From: an uncultured Holdemania sp.
Lineage (GTDB): Bacteria; Bacillota_I; Bacilli_A; Erysipelotrichales; Erysipelotrichaceae
Direction: 5' to 3'
NCBI GenBank assembly: GCA_947037125.1
Contig: CAMQTJ010000018.1
Location: 1 to 37,641, forward strand
Length of the DNA stretch: 37,641 nt
Below are positions 10,919-32,161 of the stretch, piece after piece. Below the pieces are notes generated by a model. The model did not search any database. It saw only the letters and a program-made list of their open reading frames with translations, and was not told where the DNA came from. Position 1 is the stretch's first letter, and the number at the start of each line of letters is the position of its first letter. Made by a program: the position numbers and the translations under genes.

Positions 10919-12286
10919 ATGAATCTATATAGAGATTATCAATTTAGTGAAAAAACTAAAAATTTTATTGAATTAAATGGTTTTGAAACACCAACAAAAA
11001 TTCAAAAAGCGGTTATACCAATGGCAACAAAAGGAAAGGATATAATTGCTGTTTCAGATACAGGTACAGGGAAAACACATGCTTTTCTAATTCCTATTCT
11101 AGAAGCTGTGAACTCGGATAAACCTACAGTTCAAGCAGTTATAACAGCACCAACACGTGAACTTGCACAACAAATTTTTAATCGTGCAAAATTAATGATG
11201 AAAGTTGATCCAGAATTAAGAATCAAGTTAGTTACAGGAGGTTCAGATCGTAAACATATGGCAGATAGTATGAGTATCCAGCCACATATCGTTATCGGAA
11301 CTCCAGGTAGAATTAAAGACTTATTTTTAACTGATGGTGTTTTAAGAATTGACACAACTAAAATTTTAGTTGTCGATGAAGCTGACATGACTTTAGAATT
11401 TGGATTTTTAGAAGACATCGATGCTATGGCTACACGTATGTCTAAATCTCTTCAAATGATGGCATTTAGTGCAACAATTCCTCAAGCTTTAAAACCATTT
11501 TTAAAAAAATATATGACTAATCCTCAACTTGTTGAAATTAAAGATGATGAAGCTATGGCTCCACAAATCGAACATATTTTAATACCTTGTAAACATCGTA
11601 GTTATATTGAAACATGTATTGACATACTTCCAGGATTTATTCCTTATGTATGTTTAATATTCGCTAACACAAGAACTGATGCTGCTGATTGTGCTACACA
11701 ATTACGTAAAAATGGTTATGATGTTGTTGAATTACATGGTGGTTTAGAAGCTCGTCAAAGAAGACAGGCAATGAAACAATTAAGTAATCTTAAACAATCT
11801 TTTGTTGTTGCATCAGATATTGCTGCAAGAGGAATTGATATTGAAGGAATTACACATGTTATTTCTTTAGGTTTCCCAAGTGAACCAGATTTTTATATTC
11901 ACAGATCTGGAAGAACTGGTCGTGCTGGACGTGAAGGTGTATGTTTTGCAATCTATAAAGAAAGTGACATGAAGAGTGTTAATTACTTTAAAGAACGCGG
12001 TATAGTCTTTACACATAAAACATTTAAAAATGGTGTATGGTCAGAAATGAAAGATTTAGGTCAAAAATATATTCAAAAAAATGACTTGAGTGAAAAACAA
12101 TTAAGTCATAAATTAACTAGAAAAAAAGAAAAAGTTAAACCTGGTTATAAAAAGAAAAAAGCTGAAGAAGTTAAAAGAATTAAACAAAAAGAAAAAAGAG
12201 ATTTAATTCGTAAGAATATTAAAGAAGTAAGAAAAGAGCGTTATAAAACAGAACAAAGAGCTAAAACTGAGGCGCTAAATAAATGA
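10919..12286 (+). CDS. cshB: DEAD-box RNA helicase (CshB-like)
   Basis: The 455-residue ATP-dependent RNA helicase has the motifs in order: the Q motif in GFETPTKIQ (about 21-29), Walker A SDTGTGKT (45-52), PTRELAQQ, TPGR, DEAD in VVDEADM, SAT in AFSATIP, then the second RecA domain with ARGIDIEG and HRSGRTGRAGR. A basic C-terminal tail (from about 390, rich in Lys/Arg/Glu) probably adds RNA binding. Family members help mRNA decay, ribosome assembly and cold growth. The order cshB-nfo is as in B. subtilis (yqfR-yqfS), which supports CshB over other DEAD paralogues. Its stop overlaps the nfo start in ATGA, so the two are translationally coupled. Confidence 0.9.
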   Translation: MNLYRDYQFSEKTKNFIELNGFETPTKIQKAVIPMATKGKDIIAVSDTGTGKTHAFLIPILEAVNSDKPTVQAVITAPTRELAQQIFNRAKLMMKVDPELRIKLVTGGSDRKHMADSMSIQPHIVIGTPGRIKDLFLTDGVLRIDTTKILVVDEADMTLEFGFLEDIDAMATRMSKSLQMMAFSATIPQALKPFLKKYMTNPQLVEIKDDEAMAPQIEHILIPCKHRSYIETCIDILPGFIPYVCLIFANTRTDAADCATQLRKNGYDVVELHGGLEARQRRQAMKQLSNLKQSFVVASDIAARGIDIEGITHVISLGFPSEPDFYIHRSGRTGRAGREGVCFAIYKESDMKSVNYFKERGIVFTHKTFKNGVWSEMKDLGQKYIQKNDLSEKQLSHKLTRKKEKVKPGYKKKKAEEVKRIKQKEKRDLIRKNIKEVRKERYKTEQRAKTEALNK

Positions 12287-13125
12287 TAATCGGCTCACAT
12301 TGTAAAATGAGTTCAAAAGATTTTCTTTTGGGTTCTGTAAATGAAGCTTTAAGTTATGATGCTAATGCATTGATGATCTATACAGGTGCTCCACAAAATA
12401 CTATGCGACGCCCTGTAAAAGATTTAAAAGTTAAAGAAGCAACAGAGTTGTTAGCTCAAAATAATATTCCTATGGAAAATATGATTGCGCATGCACCATA
12501 TATTATTAACTTAGCAAACTGTGTTAATGCATCAACTTTTGAATTAGCAACTACTTTTTTAGAAAAAGAAATTGCAAGATGTGAAGAAATTGGTTTGAAA
12601 TACCTAGTATTACATCCAGGTTCATTCACAACAGCTACTTTTGATAAAGGTATTAATAAAATTGTTGAAGGCTTAAATATGGTTTTAAAACAAGATCAAA
12701 AAGTAACTATTTTACTTGAAACTATGTCAGGTAAGGGTAGTGAAGTTGGTTATGAGTTTGAACATTTAAAATATATTATGGATAACACTATTTTTAAGCA
12801 ACACCTTGCAGTATGTTTAGACACTTGTCATATTCATGATGCTGGTTATGATTTAAATGATTTTGACACAATCTTAAATGATTTTGATAAGATTATTGGA
12901 TTAGATAAATTAAAAGTTATGCATATTAATGATTCTAAAAATGAAATGGGAGCTAAAAAAGATCGTCATGCAAATATCGGTGATGGCTTTATTGGTTTTA
13001 AAAACTTACATTATATTGTGAATCATGAAAAACTTGAAAATGTAATTAAAATATTAGAAACACCATATATTGAAGAACAAGCTCCATATAAGGCTGAGAT
13101 AGCATTGTTAAAAAGTGAAATATAA
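12283..13125 (+). CDS. nfo: Endonuclease IV (AP endonuclease)
   Basis: The 280-residue protein cleaves DNA 5' of abasic sites in base-excision repair with a three-zinc centre. Metal-ligand motifs are all visible: the His in MIAHAPYIINLA, LVLHPGS, LLETMSGKG (Glu), CLDTCHIHDAGYD (Asp and His), VMHINDSK, DRHANIGDG and the ETP Glu near the end. The family signature HPGSF is complete. The ATG overlaps the cshB stop by 4 bp, with no need for a separate ribosome-binding site. A terminator follows within 10 bp, so the operon is cshB-nfo only. Length and motifs are normal. Confidence 0.95.
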   Translation: MIIGSHCKMSSKDFLLGSVNEALSYDANALMIYTGAPQNTMRRPVKDLKVKEATELLAQNNIPMENMIAHAPYIINLANCVNASTFELATTFLEKEIARCEEIGLKYLVLHPGSFTTATFDKGINKIVEGLNMVLKQDQKVTILLETMSGKGSEVGYEFEHLKYIMDNTIFKQHLAVCLDTCHIHDAGYDLNDFDTILNDFDKIIGLDKLKVMHINDSKNEMGAKKDRHANIGDGFIGFKNLHYIVNHEKLENVIKILETPYIEEQAPYKAEIALLKSEI

Positions 13126-13131
13126 AATATT

Positions 13132-13172
13132 AGAATTCAATGACATTTATTTGTACTTGAATTCTTTTTTTA
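13132..13172 (+). terminator. Intrinsic terminator of cshB-nfo
   Basis: AGAATTCAA (13132-13140) pairs with TTGAATTCT (13157-13165) across a 16-nt loop, followed by a T run. Confidence 0.8.
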
Positions 13173-13186
13173 TTATTATTATTATG

Positions 13187-13215
13187 TTGACTTGTGAAAG
13201 AATTAGTGATATTAT
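13187..13215 (+). promoter_or_regulatory. Near-consensus promoter of the 18-codon ORF
   Basis: TTGACT (13187-13192), a 17-bp spacer and TATTAT (13210-13215) make one of the best sigma-A promoters in the window. Transcription should start near 13222, just ahead of the AAGGAG of the small ORF. Confidence 0.75.
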
Positions 13216-13240
13216 GCATTCATTGGAAGGAGTTATTACT

Positions 13241-13297
13241 ATGACAAATATTCTAAACTTAAAATTAAATAGCAGCATAGTAATTAACTTACTATAA
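13241..13297 (+). CDS. 18-residue small ORF, leader peptide or small peptide upstream of the ABC pair
   Basis: ATG at 13241 to TAA at 13295-13297 encodes 18 residues: MTNILNLK, then LNSSIVINLL. It has a strong AAGGAG (13227-13232) with 8 nt spacing and its own near-consensus promoter, and a strong hairpin terminator follows 25 nt after the stop. The peptide is rich in Leu, Ile and Asn and has no Gly-Gly leader, Cys or signal peptide. Two readings are possible. It may be a regulatory leader whose translation controls readthrough into the ABC exporter genes 160 bp downstream. Alternatively it is a small peptide, perhaps exported by them. I favour the leader reading because the terminator lies between the ORF and the transporters. 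A longer frame beginning at 13115 runs through the nfo terminator and is not credible. Confidence 0.6.
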   Translation: MTNILNLKLNSSIVINLL

Positions 13298-13360
13298 ATT
13301 TTTTCTATAATTATTATAAATGAAAAAATACTAGGTTATTGCTAACTTAGTATTTTTTTA
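13298..13360 (+). terminator. Terminator with a possible competing hairpin (attenuator-like)
   Basis: The terminator stem pairs 13323-13338 with 13343-13358 (core TACTAGGTTA/TAACTTAGTA, one G-T) around TTGC, and its right arm ends in a T run. Upstream, ATTTTTTC (13298-13305) can pair with GAAAAAAT (13322-13329), with a further inner dyad TATAAT/ATTATA (13306-13318). That pairing would take up the left foot of the terminator. It is all A-T, so competition may be weak. Confidence 0.6.
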
Positions 13361-13459
13361 TGCTAAATCGCTAAATTTATTACAATTTGCTTTTTTAGTC
13401 TACAAAAAAATTATAAGATAAAAGTTATAATCAATAAAAATAAGGGGAGGTTGATAGTA

Positions 13460-15226
13460 GTGAAACGGCTAAAGATTATGATTAAAAGTTATAAAGATTT
13501 AATTAAAATGGCTTATAAGGATGAAAAAATGTATTTCTTTTGGGTTATGTTAAATTTTATATGTTATGGAGTATATGGTTATTCGATAATCCAAGTACCA
13601 AGAATTGTTTTAGAAATGCTTGAATCTAATACGGTTAATTTTGAGCTTCTAATTATTGTATTTACTATTATCTTTATAAGTGATTTAGGAATTTCATTGT
13701 GTAAAATAAAGTATACACCTGTAGGATATCGTATTCGATATGGTTTGATGCTTAAATATAATGAAAAGAATTTATCAATACCTTTAGATCAATATGAAGA
13801 TCCAAAAATTTTGGATAACTTATGGAATATCACAAGACCGATAACTTCAGTAAATGGTGTGCAGTTTTTTTACTTGCATTGCGCTGAATTTAGTGGGAAT
13901 TTCGCAATTATATTAATATCAATAGGAGTTTTATTAAAACTTAACATTATATTAGCGATATTTATTTTTATATGGATTATCATCTATACATTCTTAAATG
14001 TTTTAAATTCTGAAAAGATTGGAAAAATAAAAGATGATGGTGGTAGCATTTATAGAAAACATTTTTACTTTAAAAACATTAGCATGGATATTTCTTTTGC
14101 GAAGGAAATGCGTGTATTTAGATTAAAAAATTGGTTTAAAATAAAAATGAATACTTTACTAGATGACATGGAGAAATTTTCAAAACTAACTTATAAGTTT
14201 AGTGCTAAAATTATGATTTTGGATAATATTTACCAATTTATACGTGATAGTATTATGTATATTACATTAATTATTTTATATTTTGATAATAAAATTAATC
14301 TGGCACAGTTTTCTATGTATTCAGTATTAGTAATGCAGTTAAACAATGCCTTGTCATTAGGGGTTAATAATATTAAAACGATAGTTAATGAATATGAAAA
14401 ATATACTAAGATGTTTGATTATTTTAGAATTGAAAATGAAGATAATAAAGGTTTAGAATTTAAATGTGATAATGATTGGGAGATAAAATTTGATAATGTT
14501 AGTTTTCATTATTTAGGTAGTGATAAAAACATTTATGAAAATTTAAACTTTACAATTAAAAAAGGTAAAAAAATTGCAGTTATAGGTTTAAATGGTGTTG
14601 GTAAAACAACTTTGATTAAATTATTAATGCGTTTATATAAGCCAACTGATGGGAAAATATTATTTAATGGTGTTGATATTCAATCTTTTAAATTAAGTGA
14701 ATACTATAATCTTTTTGCACCAGTATTTCAAGAAATTAACTTGTTTGCTTATTCAGTTAAAGAAAACTTAGTTTTTGATCAAGAATATGATGATAAAATA
14801 GCTTATGATGCACTTATACAAGTAGGTCTAAAAGATAAAATATCGCTTGATCAATTAGATAAAAGCATGACTAAAATAATTGATGAAGATGGATTATTAT
14901 TATCAGGTGGTGAATCTCAAAAGTTTGCAATGGCACGAGCAATTTGTTCGAATCGACAAGTACTAATCCTTGATGAACCAACAAGTGCCTTAGATGCAAT
15001 AGCAGAATATGATTTTTATCATAAAATTAATAATGATTATAAAGATAAGACAATTTTATTTATATCTCATCGTTTAGCAAGTACTAGTTTTTGTGATGAA
15101 ATAATTTTAGTTGATGATAAGTGTATTAAGGAACATGGTACTCATGATCAATTAATGAAACTTGAAGGTAAGTACTTTGAATTATATCGAGTTCAATCAA
15201 AGTATTATCAAAAGGAGGAATCATAA
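13460..15226 (+). CDS. ABC exporter half-transporter 1 (membrane domain plus ATPase)
   Basis: The protein is 588 residues. The N-terminal half has about five to six membrane helices of the ABC exporter type (residues about 25-300). The C-terminal ATPase has Walker A GLNGVGKTT, Q-loop FQEINLF, signature LSGGESQ, Walker B VLILDEPTSALD with the catalytic Glu, and H-loop ISHR. The start is the GTG at 13460, placed 9 nt after GGGGAGG. The TTG at 13451 abuts that site and is unlikely. The next gene starts in TAATG overlap, so the two halves are made together and probably form a heterodimer. No peptidase C39 domain is present. The substrate is unknown: the family exports peptides, lipids or drugs. 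Confidence 0.88.
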   Translation: MKRLKIMIKSYKDLIKMAYKDEKMYFFWVMLNFICYGVYGYSIIQVPRIVLEMLESNTVNFELLIIVFTIIFISDLGISLCKIKYTPVGYRIRYGLMLKYNEKNLSIPLDQYEDPKILDNLWNITRPITSVNGVQFFYLHCAEFSGNFAIILISIGVLLKLNIILAIFIFIWIIIYTFLNVLNSEKIGKIKDDGGSIYRKHFYFKNISMDISFAKEMRVFRLKNWFKIKMNTLLDDMEKFSKLTYKFSAKIMILDNIYQFIRDSIMYITLIILYFDNKINLAQFSMYSVLVMQLNNALSLGVNNIKTIVNEYEKYTKMFDYFRIENEDNKGLEFKCDNDWEIKFDNVSFHYLGSDKNIYENLNFTIKKGKKIAVIGLNGVGKTTLIKLLMRLYKPTDGKILFNGVDIQSFKLSEYYNLFAPVFQEINLFAYSVKENLVFDQEYDDKIAYDALIQVGLKDKISLDQLDKSMTKIIDEDGLLLSGGESQKFAMARAICSNRQVLILDEPTSALDAIAEYDFYHKINNDYKDKTILFISHRLASTSFCDEIILVDDKCIKEHGTHDQLMKLEGKYFELYRVQSKYYQKEES

Positions 15227-16998
15227 TGAAAAAACAATTAAGTGTCCTATTTTTTGTACTTAAAAAGACACATAGATTAGCCCCTTCATATATTATACTG
15301 CAATGTATTCAAACAGTTTTAGAAACAAGTTTAATCTTTGCATTTATTTATTTGCCAGCATTTATTATTGAAATTTTAACTAGTGATATGCAAGTAGAAA
15401 TAATCAAAAAGCAAGTTATAATATTTTTGTTTATAATACTTGTCGTAAGATTATTTATTAGTATTATTAATAAGCGAATTTCTATAATATCAGAAGTATT
15501 ACAATTTAAAATGATAGCTGAAGTAAATGAACAATTATTAGATGTGTCATATGATAAATTAGAGAGTCCAAAATTTATGGATCAGTTAGCTAATGCTGTT
15601 GAGCCTATTGATAATCTTGGAGCAAACACAAACTTATTTTTGGCTCTACCTAAAATAATACAGCATTTTATAACAATAGTTGGTGTAATTTCAATTGTTT
15701 ACACTTATAGTATATGGGTGGTAGTTATAGTATTTATGATGTCATTTGCTTTGTTTTTATTTAATAAAGCAAGAATTAATGAAGAGATAAATAATGCGAA
15801 GTCAAACTTTGATCAACATAAAACATATTGGTATTATTTAAGGATGATGAAAGATCCAAGTATTGCGAAAGATGTGCGATTATATAAGGCTCAACCATTT
15901 TTACTTAAAAAGGCTAAAGAGTATTATCAAAGTGTGATTGATTCAGGTACTTTACTATACAAAAATCGTGACTTAAGAGCACTTGCAGGACGTAGTTTTT
16001 CAGTATTAGTACTTATATTTATGTATTCATATTTATTGATTAATCCAAATAATGTTACAATGGAGGCATCATATTTAATCTTATTAGTTAATGCTTGTAC
16101 TACATTGTTTATCGCAATAAATATGATTCAAACAGAATTACTTACAGCTAATCAGTCACTAGTTTATTTAGCTCAATATTTAAAGTTTAATGAAATGGTT
16201 ACTTTAAGTAAAGATGATGGGACAATTAAGTGTGATCCTGAAATAACTTCAATTGAATTTAAAGATGTAACATTTGCATATCCTGATACACAAAAAAATA
16301 TTTTAGAAAACTTTAACTTACTAATTGATTCAAAACAAAGAGTTTCAATTGTCGGTGAAAATGGTTGTGGTAAAAGTACAATAATTAAATTAATTGCGAA
16401 ATTATATATACCTTGTAGTGGTTGTATTTTAATTAATGGTATCGATTTAAATTTATATGATTATGATTCTTACTTAAAACAAGTTTCAATTATTTTTCAA
16501 GATTTTAAAATCTTTGATATTTCTATTAAAGAAAATATTACATTTGAAAATAATGATGATTTAAAGTTAATGAATGCACTTCAAGAAAGTGATTTTGATA
16601 AAGAACTAGTCAAATTTAATAATGGTGTCGACACATTTACTGGAAAAGCCTTTGATGATAATGGTGTAATGCTGTCTAAAGGGCAAGAACAAAAATTAGC
16701 GATTGCTAGAAGTATTTATAAAAATGGTTCTTTAATGATCTTAGATGAACCAACAGCATCACTTGATCCGATGGCTGAAGAGTTAGTATATCAACATTTT
16801 AATCAGCTAACAAAAGATAAACTTTCAATAATTATAAGTCATCGTTTATCTAGTTGTCGTATGAGTGATGTTATAGTACTGATTGAAGATGGAAAAGTTA
16901 AACAATTAGGTAGTCATCAACAACTAATGAATGCGAAAAATAGCTATGCAAATATGTTTAATCTACAAGCTAGTAACTATTTACAAACACAAGAATAA
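15226..16998 (+). CDS. ABC exporter half-transporter 2 (membrane domain plus ATPase)
   Basis: This 590-residue protein has the same build as the preceding gene. Membrane helices lie in the first about 310 residues. The ATPase has Walker A GENGCGKST, Q-loop FQDFKIF, Walker B LMILDEPTASLD and H-loop ISHR. The signature is LSKGQ, not LSGGQ, so one of the two composite ATP sites is mildly non-canonical. Both halves keep the catalytic Glu. The ATG overlaps the stop of half 1 (TAATG), with AAGGAGG about 7 nt upstream. A weak terminator follows. Because of the coupling and matching length I read the pair as one heterodimeric exporter. No biosynthetic or immunity gene lies next to it, apart from the 18-codon ORF. 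Confidence 0.88.
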   Translation: MKKQLSVLFFVLKKTHRLAPSYIILQCIQTVLETSLIFAFIYLPAFIIEILTSDMQVEIIKKQVIIFLFIILVVRLFISIINKRISIISEVLQFKMIAEVNEQLLDVSYDKLESPKFMDQLANAVEPIDNLGANTNLFLALPKIIQHFITIVGVISIVYTYSIWVVVIVFMMSFALFLFNKARINEEINNAKSNFDQHKTYWYYLRMMKDPSIAKDVRLYKAQPFLLKKAKEYYQSVIDSGTLLYKNRDLRALAGRSFSVLVLIFMYSYLLINPNNVTMEASYLILLVNACTTLFIAINMIQTELLTANQSLVYLAQYLKFNEMVTLSKDDGTIKCDPEITSIEFKDVTFAYPDTQKNILENFNLLIDSKQRVSIVGENGCGKSTIIKLIAKLYIPCSGCILINGIDLNLYDYDSYLKQVSIIFQDFKIFDISIKENITFENNDDLKLMNALQESDFDKELVKFNNGVDTFTGKAFDDNGVMLSKGQEQKLAIARSIYKNGSLMILDEPTASLDPMAEELVYQHFNQLTKDKLSIIISHRLSSCRMSDVIVLIEDGKVKQLGSHQQLMNAKNSYANMFNLQASNYLQTQE

Positions 16999-26280: not shown

Positions 26281-26439
26281 ATGGCATCAGGTAGACAAGA
26301 TTTAACATTCAGATGTTCTGAGTGCAAAGAAGAGAATTACATTGGAACAAGAAACAAAAGAAAAAACCCTGAAAAAATGGAAATTAATAAGTATTGCCCA
26401 CGTTGTAATAAAAAAACTTTACACAAGGAGAAAAAATAA
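26281..26439 (+). CDS. rpmG: Ribosomal protein bL33 (zinc-binding form)
   Basis: The 52-residue protein of the large ribosomal subunit begins MASGRQDLTFRCSEC and ends CNKKTLHKEKK. It holds two CxxC pairs (Cys12/15 and Cys39/42), so it is the zinc-binding C+ version. Many Firmicutes also carry zinc-free copies that replace it under zinc starvation, but none is in this window. A strong AGGAGG lies 9 nt before the ATG. The TAA stop overlaps the base of the terminator hairpin. It is a single-gene transcript unless readthrough feeds the MBL-fold gene just downstream. Confidence 0.95.
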   Translation: MASGRQDLTFRCSECKEENYIGTRNKRKNPEKMEINKYCPRCNKKTLHKEKK

Positions 26440-31354: not shown

Positions 31355-31367
31355 ATTAAAGTATAAA

Positions 31368-31471
31368 AACTTCAGGGCAGGGTGTGATTCCCGACCGGCG
31401 GTATACCCCGCGAGCGAAAGCTGAACTGGTTAGATTCCAGTGGCGACAGTAAAGTCTGGATGAAAGAGTGT
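31368..31471 (+). promoter_or_regulatory. FMN riboswitch (RFN element)
   Basis: The conserved RFN core is plain: CAGGGCAGGGTG, ATTCCCGACCGGCGGT, CCCGCGAGC, CTGAACTGGT, AGATTCCAG and GCGACAGTAAAGTCTGGATG. The whole six-helix junction can be drawn. FMN binding should favour the downstream terminator at 31497-31523 and so lower RibU when flavin is sufficient. This patch is much richer in G+C than the rest of the window, as expected for a constrained RNA. Confidence 0.97.
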
Positions 31472-31496
31472 TTTTTTTATCTTTTATTTTTATCCT

Positions 31497-31555: not shown

Positions 31556-32161
31556 ATGAATAACAAAAAATTATTATCTACAAGAAACATGAGTATTATT
31601 GCAATATTAAGTGCTATGGCTACAATTTTGCTGTATTTTGATTTTCCGATTCCTTTTTTACCACCATTTTATAAATTGGACTTTAGTTCGATACCTGCAT
31701 TAATTGGAGGCTTTGCTATTGGTCCCATGGCGGCTGTTGTAATTGTTGTTTTAAAAATTATTTTGAATTTATTAATTCAAGGTTCTAATTCTGCATTTGT
31801 GGGTCAAATCGCTGATTTTGTTTTAAGTATTGCATTTATATTCCCATCTGTACTTTATTATCATAACAAAAAAAATAAAAAAGGAGCTATAATAGGATTA
31901 TTATTAGGAGTTTTATCTCTTTGTGTTTTTGGCGGAATATTTAATTACTATTTTTTGATTCCGGCTTATTCTACATTATATAAAATGCCAATAGAAACTA
32001 TTATTCAAATGGGGACTGTTGTATTTCCATTTATTAATGATAAATTTACTTTTGTACTGTTTGTAACAAGTATTTTTAATATTATTAAAGGATTATTGCT
32101 TTCGATTATTACATTAAGTATTTATAAACAAATATCAATTATCATAAAAAGAGTGAAATAA
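31556..32161 (+). CDS. ribU: Riboflavin ECF-transporter S-component
   Basis: The 201-residue membrane protein binds riboflavin and works with the ECF energising module (EcfA/A'/T, not in this window) to import it. Six hydrophobic segments are seen. Family signatures are MSIIAILSAMATILLYFDFPIPFLPPFYKLDFSSIPALIGGFAIGP, here read as helix 1 and the Lxxxx-DFSDIPAL-like riboflavin-binding segment, and NYYFLIPAY in the middle. The FMN riboswitch upstream makes the assignment secure. AAGGAG lies 6 nt before the ATG. The organism therefore depends at least partly on imported riboflavin, in line with the FMN/FAD flavoprotein at 3278. Confidence 0.95.
   Translation: MNNKKLLSTRNMSIIAILSAMATILLYFDFPIPFLPPFYKLDFSSIPALIGGFAIGPMAAVVIVVLKIILNLLIQGSNSAFVGQIADFVLSIAFIFPSVLYYHNKKNKKGAIIGLLLGVLSLCVFGGIFNYYFLIPAYSTLYKMPIETIIQMGTVVFPFINDKFTFVLFVTSIFNIIKGLLLSIITLSIYKQISIIIKRVK

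Follow-up and report, generated by a model that had tools for sequence, protein, structure and literature searches.

A putative ribosome-mediated transcription attenuator ahead of an ABC exporter operon in an uncultured Holdemania sp.

In the trp, thr, his, ilv, and leu leaders of Escherichia coli, the amino acid whose synthesis is controlled occurs in runs. In Bacillus subtilis, a small translated ORF (bmrB), alternative stem-loops, and an intrinsic terminator precede the two-gene ABC exporter bmrC/bmrD, and the bmrB leader contains rare codons and shows increased readthrough with ribosome-targeting drugs (PMC4191407). In Listeria monocytogenes, the ABC transporter gene lmo1652 likewise follows a leader, Rli59, in which a small ORF is combined with a terminator, and translation inhibitors open this leader (PMC8079631). 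In vmlR and in the Listeria Rli53/lmo0919 system, the uORF lies within an anti-antiterminator, and an antiterminator competes with a terminator (PMC9226507, PMC8079631); the vmlR leader also harbors a hairpin sequestering the Shine-Dalgarno (SD) sequence (PMC9226507). Here, the window (i.e., the whole stretch of 37,641 nucleotides that was analysed) was found to contain a short leader ahead of an ABC exporter operon in an uncultured Holdemania sp., and on balance we lean towards reading it as a ribosome-mediated transcription attenuator for the exporter. Attenuator control is of a known type and the locus is apparently undescribed. None of the titles and abstracts searched evidently dealt with such an exporter leader in the family, and such leaders are easily overlooked by annotation because the ORF has only 18 codons.

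Between nfo (deoxyribonuclease IV, 12283-13125), the upstream neighbour of the leader, and the two-gene ABC exporter lie, in order, a hairpin, a promoter, an SD sequence, a small ORF, a terminator, a second SD sequence, and a GTG codon. The terminator-like hairpin of nfo (AGAATTCAA/TTGAATTCT followed by a T-run; 13132-13165, plus strand) has a predicted fold of -10.7 kcal/mol (13130-13180), suggesting that nfo has its own terminator and that the leader is a separate unit. Downstream, all on the plus strand, lie a sigma-A type promoter (TTGACT-17-TATTAT, 13187-13215; 10/12 matches) with a TGn extended -10, the only one of the listed sites in which TG precedes the -10, and an SD sequence (AAGGAG, 13227-13232) placed 8 nt before the ATG of an ORF of 18 codons plus TAA (MTNILNLKLNSSIVINLL, 13241-13297), which carries AGC-AGC at codons 11-12. 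A leader ORF with a ribosome-binding site, one feature of an attenuator, is present in this AAGGAG-8-ATG arrangement, from which translation is predicted. A further feature, a predicted intrinsic terminator between the leader ORF and the first structural gene, is present at 13320-13361, 22 nt past the ORF stop, with a perfect 19-bp stem, a 4-nt loop, a T-rich 3' arm, and a fold of -18.3 kcal/mol. The ABC operon begins with the SD sequence GGGGAGG (13444-13450, plus strand), 9 nt before the GTG start of half 1 (13460-15226, plus strand), which is followed by half 2 with an overlapping start (15226-16998, plus strand). The promoter, AAGGAG, 18-codon ORF, strong terminator, and GGGGAGG-led ABC operon listed in the preliminary description are therefore all in place. 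A second promoter-like site (TTAACT-16-TATAAT, 10/12) was also seen inside the leader at 13284-13311 (plus strand), 5' of the terminator. Elsewhere in the window, an FMN riboswitch (98.9 bits) was detected at 31364-31476 (plus strand) before the ORF at 31556-32161, which is probably a riboflavin-related gene, and an SD-led short gene of about 52 codons at 26281 (plus strand) resembles that of ribosomal protein L33 (MASGRQDLTFRCSECKEENYIGTRNKRKN...), below the 60-codon limit of the ORF listing.

The unit was compared with a genomic background of ten sampled 20-kb stretches plus the window (237.6 kb, same genome, 27% GC). Nine intergenic small ORFs with an SD sequence and ATG were found outside longer ORFs in these 237.6 kb, two of which resemble ribosomal protein L33 genes by inspection. 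The leader ORF alone among the nine combined a -18 kcal/mol hairpin-plus-T-run within 140 nt with a same-strand gene behind it, and the next-best small ORF had a downstream hairpin of -11.3 kcal/mol with no gene behind it in the scanned stretch. Moreover, the 159-nt leader (13217-13375) showed a fold z of -4.57, with 0/200 shuffles as good, mostly because of the terminator (z = -1.22 without the right arm). It is thus very unlikely that the small ORF and the pairings arose by chance in intergenic DNA of 20% GC: AT-rich DNA does yield many hairpins, and rare codons would equally suit a non-coding frame, but the unit is the sole one of its kind in 238 kb of the genome and its fold departs from that of the shuffles. 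Promoter-like matches were not in excess (11 observed versus 7.3 +- 3.3) and are uninformative alone because the DNA is AT-rich.

The self-contained nature of the unit is also what would be expected of an independent small gene, i.e., a 140-nt sRNA or peptide transcript unrelated to the ABC operon, with the latter served by a weak promoter of its own after 13362. The 100-nt spacing gives room for such a promoter, and a TATAAT lies at 13426-13431; however, no promoter-like site with at least 9/12 matches occurs between 13362 and 13450, and no copy of the unit was found elsewhere in the genome or family, making this explanation unlikely. Another short element of the same genome, with the core AACATTAGGGGTTTGCATTCATA, was observed in three copies on the minus strand of L035 (G000:C12) near 1690, 1477, and 666, its only sites in the genome. 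Each copy directly follows a terminator-like hairpin of the AAAAAAGCC..GGCTTTTTT type and is followed by a variable hairpin-like stretch; one copy is an SD-led 22-codon ORF (MNNIRGLHSYYVRTIIFLTRLL), and no Rfam family matched the element at gathering score.

Under the attenuator reading, the pairings available to the leader RNA are central. The preliminary description had proposed a second pairing overlapping the left foot of the terminator, formed by ATTTTTTC with GAAAAAAT plus TATAAT/ATTATA. The ATTTTTTC/GAAAAAAT helix exists, but by itself amounts to just -3.3 kcal/mol without engaging the terminator core (core alone -8.5 kcal/mol), and TATAAT/ATTATA is sterically limited, being unable to pair over 6 bp because one base only lies between the arms. 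The competing pairing is not confined to the A/U-tract; a larger one, between 13285-13305 and 13322-13338, arises from the 3' end of the ORF. The ORF end and U-tract UAACUUACUAUAAAUUUUUUC (13285-13305) resemble the terminator right arm UAACUUAGUAUUUUUUU and, in the fold before the right arm is made, pair along the whole terminator left arm (13285-13291/13332-13338, 13293-13295/13328-13330, and 13300-13305/13322-13327). This antiterminator helix is the minimum free energy structure of 13284-13341, at -5.7 kcal/mol. In addition, the SD/start region (13230-13243) pairs with 13276-13290, giving -12.2 kcal/mol for 13229-13291, and this helix would act as an anti-antiterminator that would also hide the leader start. 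By prediction, the leader is therefore of the classical 1:2, 2:3, 3:4 layout, in which segment 1 comprises part of the SD sequence and the start codon (13230-13243), segment 2 the ORF end and U-tract (13276-13305), segment 3 the terminator left arm (13320-13338), and segment 4 the terminator right arm with its U-tract (13343-13361), all on the plus strand; segment 2 is contested, as it pairs with segment 1 or 3. At -5.7 versus -18.3 kcal/mol, the antiterminator is weak beside the terminator, and it would have to prevail through timing. The energy of the 2:3 duplex is unremarkable (shuffle p of 0.26, or 0.11 with slightly different borders), in a test that is too weak to decide, since among the E. 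coli leaders it catches thrL, ilvL, and hisL and misses the known attenuators leuL (0.20) and trpL (0.58).

From these elements and the mutually exclusive pairings predicted for them, we infer the following course of transcription, translation, and termination. RNA polymerase would initiate near 13222, followed by translation of the leader ORF. A ribosome reaching the ORF end would cover segment 2, allowing the 3:4 terminator to form and the RNA to end at about 13360. A ribosome that is slow or stalled near codons 8-10 would instead break the 1:2 helix and leave 13285-13305 free for the left arm, and with these paired, transcription would proceed into the ABC pair. If the leader is not translated, the 1:2 helix would form and termination would be favoured.

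The dependence on ribosome position was modelled by placing a ribosome at each codon, with its footprint kept unpaired, and reading out the pairing of the core left arm with upstream RNA. In this model, core left-arm pairing was 0.42 without a ribosome, about 0.57-0.60 with the ribosome at codons 1-5, and highest (0.76-0.83) with the P-site at codons 8-10, before falling to 0.04-0.22 at codons 15-19, with about 0.17 for a ribosome at the ORF end. Four footprint sizes all gave a profile of this shape, the peak shifting by one or two codons, and E. coli trpL gave an analogous mid-ORF peak in the same model. A choice of pairing set by ribosome position, a third attenuator feature, is thus reproduced in modelling. 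The earlier proposal that ribosome position decides readthrough accordingly gains support from anatomy and modelling, although the antiterminator differs from the one proposed. Among dinucleotide shuffles of the leader, 1.25% of 400 switched as strongly, a figure that is indicative given that the switch statistic was chosen after the profile was seen. The left arm showed a pairing of 0.56 with upstream RNA, matched by 3.6% of 55 gene-end terminators of the same genome. Furthermore, 12% of 400 synonymous recodings of the ORF reached an equal switch, so recoding retains much of the switch and gives no clear sign of codon-level selection.

A simpler explanation is fixed attenuation, in which readthrough is constant and the terminator does no more than reduce the ABC transcription driven by the 13187 promoter, the ORF being incidental or weakly translated. 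The far greater strength of the terminator than of the antiterminator, the ordinary segment duplex energy, the weak codon-level signal, and the lack of conservation of the leader (see below) would all suit it. Nevertheless, it is rather unlikely considering the consensus SD sequence at ideal spacing, the pairing of the ORF end with the ORF start as well as with the terminator, and a ribosome-position switch within the top 1.25% of shuffles.

As for what might slow the ribosome in the attenuator reading, the modelled peak at codons 8-10 directly precedes the rare AGC-AGC pair at codons 11-12. AGC makes up 4% of serine codons, and tandem AGC-AGC is absent among the window's 7,874 genic codons. 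Four of the 18 leader codons have a relative usage of at most 6.3%, a rare-codon density found in 2.8% of genic stretches; this codon signal is no more than suggestive, as rare codons are also expected in a non-coding frame and AGC need not be slow. No known drug-arrest motif could be placed at codons 8-10 of the leader peptide. It is decidedly unlikely that the leader belongs to a mid-ORF arrest class without a known drug response (NLKLNSS, codons 8-10), opening a lineage-specific exporter for a specific inhibitor or gut compound.

Regarding the signal, a translation-inhibiting compound would be the most natural one because the target is an exporter, by analogy with bmrCD, vmlR, and Rli59/lmo1652, and the exporter may be a drug pump. 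Leucine shortage is still a conceivable signal, with Leu at 5/18 codons and the A-site at codon 9. No weight can be given to the enrichment in Leu, Ile, and Asn pointed out earlier, since reading frames in 20%-GC DNA generally abound in these residues. Two other modes of control were considered: attenuation of amino-acid biosynthesis, which is disfavoured by the lack of a single-residue run in the ORF and by an exporter as target, and translation attenuation through a hidden ABC SD sequence, which gained no support, as the predicted pairing of GGGGAGG is partial and does not exceed that in shuffles (z -0.69). If the attenuator reading holds, drug- or starvation-sensing leader control of exporters would be added to this bacterial family, and the 140-nt unit would offer a testable report of what the exporter responds to.

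The ABC pair consists of two adjacent half-transporter ORFs of about 590 aa each, meeting at 15226. It is asymmetric: half 1 has a canonical LSGGE signature and half 2 a degenerate LSKGQ instead of LSGGQ, with the Walker B glutamate (ILDE) kept in both. Neither half reached an NCBIfam equivalog cut-off. Across 273 family genomes, half 1 had one close relative, in Breznakia pachnodae (52%; L011/L012), and half 2 had relatives in Breznakia pachnodae (49%) and as a fragment in G252 (45%). Searches of the order and phylum added further relatives at 32-38% only, seven of them elsewhere in the class; none occurred in viral contigs, and the two on plasmids were both distant. By sequence comparison, the ABC pair is thus lineage-specific. 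In sister species of the genus, no comparable ABC pair follows nfo as far as the contigs reach. Other ABC exporter pairs, not preceded by this leader, were observed in the same genome (L007/L009, G000:C17:9643-13207) and in G002:C27 (L006/L008); both are preceded by genes with GHKL histidine kinase-like ends, as judged by inspection, and one in-frame TAA lies within the matched part of the second half of L007/L009.

The leader itself was seen in no relative. The upstream side of the Breznakia pachnodae orthologue does not carry it, nor was a comparable leader found at the seven 32-38% relatives, for two of which (L041 and L045) the match is on the opposite strand and the sequence examined was not truly upstream. 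The leader DNA had no match covering the ORF in the 273 family genomes, with short AT-rich matches only, all near the ORF end, the U-tract, and the A-tract, and Rfam searches at gathering and relaxed thresholds found no family in the leader, yielding only a chance microRNA match (E 0.33). The preliminary description had counted a lack of conservation in related genomes against its proposal, and formally that is the outcome, as judged from the one close orthologue available for comparison. About 100 nt before the Breznakia pachnodae orthologue, an unrelated perfect 16-bp hairpin (ACCAAACATATCTTCC..GGAAGATATGTTTGGT) without a T-run was observed at 2361-2402 of L011.

These comparisons also bear on the earlier suggestion that the ORF product is a small peptide secreted by the ABC pair. 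The exporter does lie directly 3' of the ORF, yet the 18 residues lack a double-glycine or signal-like leader by inspection, neither ABC half contains a C39 peptidase domain (Pfam), the neighbours nfo and malQ are neither modification nor immunity genes, and no such peptide precedes the related transporters, so this suggestion gains no support and is extremely unlikely.

Read as an attenuator, the Holdemania leader resembles bmrBCD in combining a leader ORF with rare codons, alternative folds, and a terminator before an ABC pair, whereas bmrB has about 53 codons with the terminator inside the ORF, compared with 18 codons and a terminator 22 nt past the stop here. Like Rli59/lmo1652, it combines a small ORF with a terminator in a 5' leader ahead of an ABC transporter; it showed no known Rfam family. 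With vmlR and Rli53/lmo0919 it shares, by prediction, an ORF in an anti-antiterminator and competing antiterminator and terminator structures; however, their uORF has three codons, and vmlR encodes an ABC-F resistance protein rather than an ABC exporter and responds to drugs that stall ribosomes at initiation, in contrast to the mid-ORF optimum modelled here. By analogy, the likeness to the bmrCD, vmlR, and Rli59 leaders would be functional, with no descent implied. In contrast to the amino-acid attenuators of E. coli, the leader has no run of a regulated residue and its target is an exporter, but it has in common with them the 1:2, 2:3, 3:4 layout and, in the model, the position-dependent pairing of the terminator left arm.
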